Shown here: positions 354-3,115 of the stretch, piece by piece
Layout of the letters: each line of letters begins with the position of its first letter
How positions within the stretch are numbered: position 1 is the first letter of the stretch
DNA from: Candidatus Adamsella avium
GTDB taxonomy: Bacteria > Cyanobacteriota > Vampirovibrionia > Gastranaerophilales > CAJFVJ01
Direction of reading: 5' to 3'
Assembly: GCA_904420445.1 (NCBI GenBank)
Contig: CAJFVJ010000001.1
Location: 321,266 to 385,265 of the forward strand
Length of the DNA stretch: 64,000 nt
Made by a program: the position numbers and the translations under genes
Notes under the pieces: model-generated
What the model saw: the letters and a program-made list of their open reading frames with translations, nothing else
Told to the model about the DNA's origin: nothing
The model's database searches: none

Positions 354-1427
354 TTATTTTTTGATGTCTTTGATGCTCAAGCCGATTCTGTGTTCTTGAG
401 GAGTGAATTTTTTGATGAGTACATCAATTTCATCACCTACTGAAAGAATATCAAACGGGTTGATTTGTTCTTCTGACATTTCAGCTGCCGGAAGAAGAGC
501 TTCTACACCCGGGAATATGTTGATGAATGCACCGAATGAAGTTATTTTATTAACGGTTCCTTTGATAACCTGACCTTCTTCGAATTTGCCTTCAACTTTA
601 TCCCAAGGATTTTCACCCATACGTTTCAAGCTCAAGCTGATTCTTTTGAGTTCGTTGTCAATCTTGAGGATTTTAACATCAATTTTTTGTCCGAGTTGCA
701 GAACATCTGACGGGTGTTTGATGCGCTGCCATGAAATTTCAGAGATAGGAAGCAGACCGTCTACGCCGTTGATATCAATGAATGCGCCGAAGTCAGCTAT
801 TCTGACTACTTCACCCGTAACAACCTGATCAATTTCAAGCTGGTCGATGATATTGCCTACGATTTGTTCTCTTTGTTCAGCAAGTGCCTGTCTCTGGCTA
901 AGGATAAGTTTATTTTTCTTGGCATCTGTTTCGAGGATTTTTACTTCAATTTCCTGATCAATCAAACCGTCATAAGGAATACCTGTTCTAAGCTGGCTTG
1001 AAGGGATGAAACCTCTGAGGTCCATAACTTCTACAACTACGCCGCCTTTAACAAGTGAAACGATTTTTGCAGTGACGCATTCATCGTTCTTTTTGATTTG
1101 TTCCATCTTAGCCCAATTTTGAGCAAGAGCAACTCTTTTGAGTGAAAGAAGAATCTGGTTGTTTTCATCTTCTTCTTTGAGGATATAAAAATCTCTTGTA
1201 TCGCCAATTTTGACGATATCTTCAGGTTCATTGAACGGAACGTTTGAGAGTTCTTTGAAAGTTACCAAACCTTCTGATTTAGCGCCGATATCTACGAGGA
1301 AGCCGTTATTTTCTTTCTTAACGATAGTTCCTTTCACTACGTCAGCAACTTTGAAGTTGTAGTCATAGTTTTCGAACAGTTTTGCAAATTCGCTGTCCTG
1401 ATTTGTTTTTTCCATTAATTTTGTCAT
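354..1427 (-). CDS. rpsA: 30S ribosomal protein S1
   Basis: RNA-binding ribosomal protein that helps mRNA docking on the 30S subunit. The 357 residues contain four S1/OB-fold repeats at about 29-95, 110-175, 202-270 and 287-355. The last two carry the usual GxVxxIxxFGAFI pattern. The four-repeat form is shorter than the six-repeat E. coli S1 and fits non-proteobacterial S1 proteins. The start ATG overlaps the stop of ispH (ATGA, 1424-1427), so ispH and rpsA are translationally coupled on the minus strand, a gene pair found together in several bacteria. Transcription ends at the bidirectional terminator near 320. Confidence 0.95.
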   Translation of the reverse strand: MTKLMEKTNQDSEFAKLFENYDYNFKVADVVKGTIVKKENNGFLVDIGAKSEGLVTFKELSNVPFNEPEDIVKIGDTRDFYILKEEDENNQILLSLKRVALAQNWAKMEQIKKNDECVTAKIVSLVKGGVVVEVMDLRGFIPSSQLRTGIPYDGLIDQEIEVKILETDAKKNKLILSQRQALAEQREQIVGNIIDQLEIDQVVTGEVVRIADFGAFIDINGVDGLLPISEISWQRIKHPSDVLQLGQKIDVKILKIDNELKRISLSLKRMGENPWDKVEGKFEEGQVIKGTVNKITSFGAFINIFPGVEALLPAAEMSEEQINPFDILSVGDEIDVLIKKFTPQEHRIGLSIKDIKK

Positions 1428-2305
1428 TTTTTATATTCTCCTATCTTTTTTATGACATTATCAATTACATCCTGAGGAGTTGATGCTCCTGCTGTTACTC
1501 CTATTGTGGAGCTTTCTTTGATTAAGTTTTGTATGTTATCCAATTCCTGTTCTGTTTCGATGTGTGCTGTTTTTGTAATATTTTTGAGAATTTCAGCGAG
1601 GTGTGTTGTATTCGCACTTGTCCTTCCTCCGACAACAATCATCAGGTCTGCCTGCCGTGCGAGGTCTTCTGCTTCCTTTTGACGGTTTCTTGTGGTGTGG
1701 CAGATTGTGTTGTAGCATCTCAATTCTTTTGCATTTTCGATAAGAATCGGGAGGATATTTTTGAGGTTTTCTGTTTTTTGTGTTGTTTGGGTTACAACGC
1801 CTATTTTTGCATTTTTGGTAAATTCTTTGAGCGTCATGGCTTCTTCCGGTGAAGATATGACGACGGCTGATGGTTCGCCTGCTTCGTAGTCGGCGTGTGC
1901 TTTGATTCCGATTACTTCAGGGTGTTCCGGTTTGCCTATGATGATGAGTTTATAGCCTTTGTTGATAAGTTTTTTTGCCTTGTCCTGAACAAGTTTTACA
2001 TCAGGGCAGGTGGCGTCGATTATTTCGTTATTTTGTGTTTTCAGCTGTTCGATAATCTGAGGAGAGGTTCCATGCGTTCTTATAATACAGATGGAGTCTT
2101 TTATTTCAGAGATTTCATTAATTGTATGTATTCCAAGCTGGCTCAGGTGTTCAATTACCTGATTGTTGTGAATTAGTTGTCCTAATATATAAACATTTTT
2201 ATCGGGATTTTGTTCTTTTGTTTTTATTGATAAGTCAACGGCTCTTTTAACCCCGTAGCAAAATCCTGCGAGTTTTGCTTTTATGATGTTGTTATCTGTA
2301 TTCAG
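1424..2305 (-). CDS. ispH: 4-hydroxy-3-methylbut-2-enyl diphosphate reductase (IspH), apparent CTG start
   Basis: Last enzyme of the MEP isoprenoid pathway, a [4Fe-4S] enzyme making IPP and DMAPP from HMBPP. The reading frame is open from 1424 to 2311. It holds the three cluster cysteines (GFCYGV near the N-terminus, DATCPDV in the middle, NTICHTT in the C-terminal third), the substrate-site T-H-G (RTHGTS) and the family motif TRNRQ. No ATG, GTG or TTG exists in frame upstream of the first motif: the only ATG (1837) would delete the N-terminal half with two cluster ligands. The best start is CTG at 2303-2305, nine bases after an AGGCAGG Shine-Dalgarno-like run, giving 293 residues, the usual family length. 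Coupled to rpsA by an ATGA overlap. Confidence 0.88.
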   Translation of the reverse strand: MNTDNNIIKAKLAGFCYGVKRAVDLSIKTKEQNPDKNVYILGQLIHNNQVIEHLSQLGIHTINEISEIKDSICIIRTHGTSPQIIEQLKTQNNEIIDATCPDVKLVQDKAKKLINKGYKLIIIGKPEHPEVIGIKAHADYEAGEPSAVVISSPEEAMTLKEFTKNAKIGVVTQTTQKTENLKNILPILIENAKELRCYNTICHTTRNRQKEAEDLARQADLMIVVGGRTSANTTHLAEILKNITKTAHIETEQELDNIQNLIKESSTIGVTAGASTPQDVIDNVIKKIGEYKK

Positions 2306-2422
2306 ATTAGTTTACCTGCCTTTTTTAGATTTGAGAACAGATATATATCGTCCTCTCATGCTTTATAGCACGCTGAAAAATAAAATTCAAGGAGTGTATA
2401 ATTATTGATTTTAAAAGAATTA

Positions 2423-3115
2423 TTAATGTTTGCGGCGATTTTGTTGTTCTTTCAAGTTTTTGTATATTTTCCCGAGGGTGAGAGCTGTAGAGCTTTTAAC
2501 GATAGAATTTTTATCATCAAGTCTTTTGAAGAGAGGGACAATCATTTTTTGTATATCTATTTCAGGGTTGTCTGAGAGTTTCCCGAGGCATATTACTGCT
2601 GAGTTTCTTTTCACCCAGTTTTCGTCGTTAAGTGCTTGCAGAAGTTTGTCAAATGCCGCCATGCCGCATTTTGCAACTGCGTCTGTTGCATTTGTTCTTA
2701 TTATTTCATTATCTTCGCCCATTTTTTGGATTAACAAATCAATTGTTTGAGGGTGCGCTATTTCGCCAAGGGCAAAGATTGCAGATGCTGCGACATTAGG
2801 GCTTATATCATCTGCAAGTTTTTCAAGAGAATCCAGAATCAAGTCATCGTATGATGTGTGATAGGTTTGTTTTTCTATATGTCTTTTGATTGTATGAGGC
2901 ATTGCACAGGTGAAACCTGAGTGTTCTATTGCCTGCTGAGCTTCTTCCACTGATTCAAAAATGAGGAAGTCTTTCCCAAGCGGATGTGGAATTTTTTTTG
3001 GATTGGGGTTGTCTTTCCTTTGAAAAGACAGCGCCGGAACAATGTAGACTTCGACTTCTCTACCGTTAATGACTTGAGTTTTTTTACCTATATGTATTGT
3101 ATTTGTTACGTTCAT
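2423..3115 (-). CDS. HEAT-repeat protein
   Basis: 230-residue soluble protein. Residues 1-90 are a non-repeat N-terminal region (GKKTQVINGREVEV...). From about 95 onward there are helical HEAT/PBS-lyase-like repeats with the pattern AxxALGEIAxPxxIxxL, N-x-x-D-A-x-x-x-C-G and ICLGKLSDN. Such repeats form a protein-binding solenoid; no catalytic motif is visible and the partner is unknown. The start ATG has no Shine-Dalgarno sequence but lies six bases after a TATAAT box, so the mRNA may be leaderless. Divergent from the class II aldolase gene, with which it shares a promoter region. Confidence 0.75.
   Translation of the reverse strand: MNVTNTIHIGKKTQVINGREVEVYIVPALSFQRKDNPNPKKIPHPLGKDFLIFESVEEAQQAIEHSGFTCAMPHTIKRHIEKQTYHTSYDDLILDSLEKLADDISPNVAASAIFALGEIAHPQTIDLLIQKMGEDNEIIRTNATDAVAKCGMAAFDKLLQALNDENWVKRNSAVICLGKLSDNPEIDIQKMIVPLFKRLDDKNSIVKSSTALTLGKIYKNLKEQQNRRKH

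Follow-up and report, generated by a model that had tools for sequence, protein, structure and literature searches.

How translation begins in an essential gene whose reading frame offers no standard start codon for the full-length protein is the question raised by ispH of Candidatus Adamsella avium, a member of the Gastranaerophilales. Positions given below refer to the window, i.e. the whole stretch of 64,000 nucleotides that was analysed.

The ispH frame and its probable CTG start codon

The frame of ispH (1424-2311, minus strand) follows a TAA (2312-2314, minus strand) that closes it upstream, begins with ACT AAT CTG AAT and ends with the TGA at 1424-1426. As judged by sequence comparison, it is that of a complete, full-length IspH (4-hydroxy-3-methylbut-2-enyl diphosphate reductase): the translated product matches the IspH/LytB model TIGR00216 over its whole length (residues 6-290; 266 bits, cut-off 187.85) and PDB 3dnf over residues 7-290 (E 3e-51), and the cluster-cysteine motifs GFCYG, DATCP and NTICHTT are all present and aligned with PDB 3dnf. 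The earliest ATG, GTG or TTG of the frame is an ATG with its first base at 1837, 158 codons into it, and a start there would cause the loss of the first two of the three cluster cysteines. The original prediction that no standard start yields the full-length protein, and that the start at 1837 would delete two of the three cysteines held by the frame, was confirmed, and its warning about automatic calling was borne out in that the ORF lister returned a fragment of 137 residues from ATG 1837 and nothing longer.

The start proposed instead was the CTG at 2303-2305 (minus strand), from which ispH (1424-2305, minus strand) encodes 293 residues and which was found to lie, as claimed, nine bases past AGGCAGG (2315-2321, minus strand). 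The tail of the 16S rRNA of this same genome is GGATCACCTCCTTTCT and, therefore, AAAGGCAGGT, which pairs with it at -7.3 kcal/mol, can be regarded as a real Shine-Dalgarno sequence. Both the missing standard start and a Shine-Dalgarno sequence at the proper spacing are features of genes of the infC and sigR kind. When the codon was compared in related genomes, the binding site and the CTG were found to be identical in a genome of the same genus (G001, 98% protein identity) and shared by one of the same family (G002, about 60% protein identity; AAAGGCAGGTAAATTAATCTGAAA against AAAGGCAGGTAAACTAATCTGAAT), with AGGCAGGTAAA[C/T]TAATCTGAA kept in both; the same codon is found at the same place in families f3 to f6. 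By sequence, the CTG is the sole well-placed start of ispH and, together with its Shine-Dalgarno sequence, has been conserved in several families. The case made for it as the best candidate is strengthened accordingly by the relatives, and we regard initiation of IspH at CTG 2303-2305 as highly probable.

The same comparison removes the sequencing-error alternative that the original prediction had left standing. That the start reflects a sequencing or assembly error, or that ispH is a frameshifted pseudogene, is ruled out by the two relatives for practical purposes: the site and the CTG recur unchanged in G001, an independent genome from the same genus, the other 293 codons are intact with every motif in place, and the gene is the sole ispH copy of a 99% complete genome, in which no second one was found. 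No point in favour of such an error or of a pseudogene emerged from the analysis of ispH.

Other starts were also considered. The TAA that precedes the CTG by six bases shares its frame with an ATG at 2358-2356, so that a leader of 15 codons (ATG AGA GGA ... GGC AGG TAA, 2358-2312) might be read through, or followed by a restart at the CTG. However, a deletion of 2 bases puts this mini-frame out of phase in G001, and in other families an extended Shine-Dalgarno sequence, GGAG[C/G]TGA, contains the stop, which is out of frame there (L005, L009, L017), or the stop is absent (L018); this candidate was rejected as very improbable. Hardly more credible are the near-cognate codons ATC (2285-2283) and ATA (2282-2280) or the internal ATG 1837, all in frame with ispH: the first two lack Shine-Dalgarno pairing (-1.2 versus -7.3 kcal/mol), and a start at either would remove part of the first strand of the fold, the match to the PDB structure starting at residue 7, whereas the third would sacrifice two cluster cysteines. 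The assignment of CTG as the start codon is well supported by the sequence comparisons, while its regulatory purpose is something that we infer.

Start codons of ispH across the order

Searches for ispH were positive in 143 of 146 relatives, and in 95 of the 97 genomes of the class. The start region was read in 96 members of the order and in 16 outgroups of the class, in which ispH starts with ATG, TTG or GTG. In the order, TTG was assigned in 55 cases (most of family f2), CTG in 21, ATT, ATC or ATA in 13 (genera g32, g33, g37 and g39) and ATG in only four (three in f7, plus G023), with three genes left without an assignment. The 21 genomes with CTG belong to five families (f1, f3, f4, f5 and f6) and to two genera (g35 and g40) of a sixth, f2, so that the same non-standard codon is found in independent genomes. 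Shine-Dalgarno pairing alone, with no use of homology information, selected the same codon in nearly all cases; the ATT, ATC and ATA starts were assigned from Shine-Dalgarno spacing, with less certainty, and those of L088 and L096 are poor.

These 96 genes are related, so that the counts do not correspond to independent trials. On a protein tree calculated with the start columns left out, the four start states require 8 changes and ATG versus the rest 2 only; the non-ATG codons interchange. Because the genes are related and the independent changes on the tree are few, much of the pattern may be inherited from one ancestor. By this survey, weak ispH starts are a trait of the whole order rather than a quirk of one genome. 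The ATG cases are unusual in their own right: in f7, 12-14 bases separate AGGCAGG from the ATG (9 bases separate it from the CTG of Ca. A. avium), and in G023 no Shine-Dalgarno sequence precedes the ATG and six bases lie between it and the end of a TTGAAA-N16-TATAAA promoter, so that the mRNA may be leaderless. The four cases fit with weak initiation being kept by other means, although four are few.

The distribution bears on whether the weakness of the start is of any use to the cell. A rare ancestral start could have been fixed by drift, offset by a good Shine-Dalgarno sequence and then inherited, in which case CTG would be the start but its weakness would have no purpose. The few independent changes on the ispH tree are in line with such a history, as is the strong or extended Shine-Dalgarno sequence that accompanies many of the CTG starts, and compensation of weak starts by this element is documented (PMC5622118). 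However, return to ATG is favoured elsewhere (UUG to AUG, 43 of 2,468, far above the rates for CUG; a switch from AUG to CUG is a great rarity, with 2 cases in 61,358 reconstructed starts; PMC5622118), and in seven families only two ATG lineages are found, with weak codons swapped several times. By taking into account both sets of observations, drift is possible but on the unlikely side, and selection for weak initiation of ispH is the reading we lean towards, without great confidence.

Two further observations were made in the survey. In genus g32 of f2 (L089, L106, L107, L109 and L110) the ATT belongs to the 3' side of a small hairpin that also involves the Shine-Dalgarno sequence (GGATGGTT..AACCATT), with some sequence variation between species. 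Genome G007 carries a second ispH (C68:1896-2705; L099), only 36% identical and starting with ATG, which is probably a contamination of the metagenome-assembled genome or a transferred copy.

Start codons of other genes in the same genomes

Among control genes read in the same genomes, ispG has an ATG start in 25 of 26 cases (strict rule), rpsA has ATG (45) or GTG (11), and infC has ATT (13), ATA (8) or ATC (3). The comparison argues that non-standard starts are not general in these genomes and that ispH behaves like infC, the only one of the control genes that resembles it. The infC gene, which encodes IF3, is the classic IF3-repressed gene, with an AUU or AUC start and autoregulation by its product.

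The genome of Ca. A. avium was screened over 364 kb (the window plus fifteen 20-kb stretches; 215 genes) for coding potential ahead of the standard start. With 158 coding-like codons before its first standard start, ispH scored 36 and the next gene 7, making it the one strong outlier without a standard start in these 364 kb, in a screen that is blind to short N-terminal losses such as that of infC. A Shine-Dalgarno-anchored survey of the same 364 kb yielded 99 ATG, 12 TTG and 5 GTG starts; most of the non-standard matches lie beside an ATG or inside genes, the convincing ones being ispH (CTG), infC (ATC) and a TPR-repeat protein (ATT).

The infC gene of this genome (C1:55721-56278; L122:15721-16278, L138) has its ATC after AAGGAGACATCTC. 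Throughout the order infC starts with ATT, ATC or ATA, and a caller limited to ATG, GTG and TTG would truncate it. The TPR-repeat protein (L130:14655-16802, minus strand; C1:454658-456802) carries a signal peptide (INKKVLLTAILLGVG...) that no ATG, GTG or TTG precedes; its likely start is an ATT nine bases past AAGGAG (AAGGAGTCAAAAAA ATT), which is kept in G001 (L191) and replaced by ATG in G007.

Proposed weak initiation, a possible role of IF3 and the putative ispH-rpsA operon

The gene for ribosomal protein S1, rpsA (354-1427, minus strand), directly follows ispH in every locus examined, and here its ATG overlaps the ispH stop (ATGA). Ahead of ispH, on the same strand, promoter, hairpin, Shine-Dalgarno sequence and CTG are arranged in this order. 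The -35-like TTGAAT (2385-2390) is separated by 17 bases from the -10-like TATAAA (2362-2367), which is preceded by TG as in an extended -10 element. A generic scan of the region with a strict hexamer rule did not list this pair (2390-2362), which was recognized when the sequence was read and from what is conserved in relatives: the position of the -35-like element is kept in G001, G002 (where it is TTGAAA) and L019, and similar promoters and hairpins are found ahead of ispH in other families.

From these features, ispH and rpsA would form an operon that has its own promoter and in which ispH comes first, and the initiator tRNA would start IspH with formyl-methionine at the ribosome-binding site formed by the Shine-Dalgarno sequence and the CTG. 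Selection would hold this initiation weak and thereby keep the output of IspH low on an mRNA from which the abundant S1 is translated as well. Initiation complexes on CUG are weaker than those on AUG, GUG or UUG (PMC11497404), in line with which the lower expression that the original prediction had expected from the rare start is plausible.

Translation of ispH would probably follow the level of IF3, as for infC and Streptomyces sigR, because non-standard starts are those that IF3 rejects. TTG is not strongly rejected by IF3. Since TTG is the ispH start in most of f2, and f2 makes up most of the sampled order, weakness rather than sensitivity to IF3 is the only common trait. That IF3 is the actual regulator of ispH is, by analogy, a tentative proposal, and control of the ispH-rpsA operon by an IF3-linked mechanism throughout the Gastranaerophilales appears somewhat more doubtful still.

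To our knowledge, very few genes with a conserved non-standard start have been characterized, infC and sigR being the clearest, and no report of a non-AUG start in ispH or lytB was found in the literature searched. By sequence criteria, the rare start of the essential gene ispH is real and conserved, and ispH is of this kind. With infC it shares the conserved non-standard start and the good Shine-Dalgarno sequence, as well as being essential, infC starting with ATT, ATC or ATA in this same order; unlike infC, ispH has a metabolic function outside the initiation machinery and starts with CTG, TTG or ATT/ATC/ATA, depending on the genome. The likeness to Streptomyces sigR-rsrA extends to the place as the first of two coupled genes, the rare start (GTC, conserved in 32 of 34 Streptomyces), the extended Shine-Dalgarno sequence, group-wide conservation and a start missed by gene callers; sigR is repressed by IF3 and coupled to the next gene, so that the second one is made in excess (PMC5472188). 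However, repression and stoichiometry are experimental for sigR, whereas for ispH, another gene with another codon in another phylum, the evidence is that of sequence. The clostridial IspH-S1 fusion protein (NCBIfam PRK00087) joins the same two activities, IspH then S1; unlike in the fusion, ispH and rpsA of Gastranaerophilales are two genes, overlapping or side by side, which allows their products to differ in amount.

The regulated element might instead be RNA structure around the binding site, rather than the codon; S1 might, for example, act on the ispH leader and so autoregulate the ispH-rpsA mRNA. In its Shine-Dalgarno region, ispH is predicted to be more paired (0.46-0.66) than rpsA (0.14) or infC (0.27), and hairpins of differing sequence join the Shine-Dalgarno sequence and the start in several lineages. 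However, the value for ispG is similar (0.43), the start codon is no more paired in the CTG and ATT groups than in controls, and nominal p-values mean little for related genes; fold predictions across lineages are suggestive only, with no common RNA fold demonstrated at the ispH start. Control by structure is unlikely.

If weak initiation at the codon is selected, an order that avoids ATG at an essential metabolic gene, its codon shifting while the weakness stays, would indicate that start-codon weakness can be a conserved regulatory trait. A link to IF3 would make the last isoprenoid step, and perhaps S1 through coupling, dependent on the condition of the initiation machinery. In this group automatic annotation will truncate or miss ispH, and infC as well, with possible false gaps in the MEP pathway.

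Two minor features of the locus may be added. A leader hairpin is predicted after the promoter and ahead of the Shine-Dalgarno sequence (2333-2355, minus strand); one of different sequence is predicted at this place in G001 and in G002, and this combination of constant position and changing sequence recurs in the leaders of L002, L012, L009 and L011; it may be a regulatory or stabilizing 5' hairpin. Upstream of ispH, and in this genus only, positions 2423-3115 encode a HEAT-repeat protein weakly similar to NblB and CpcF, of the phycobilin lyase kin.
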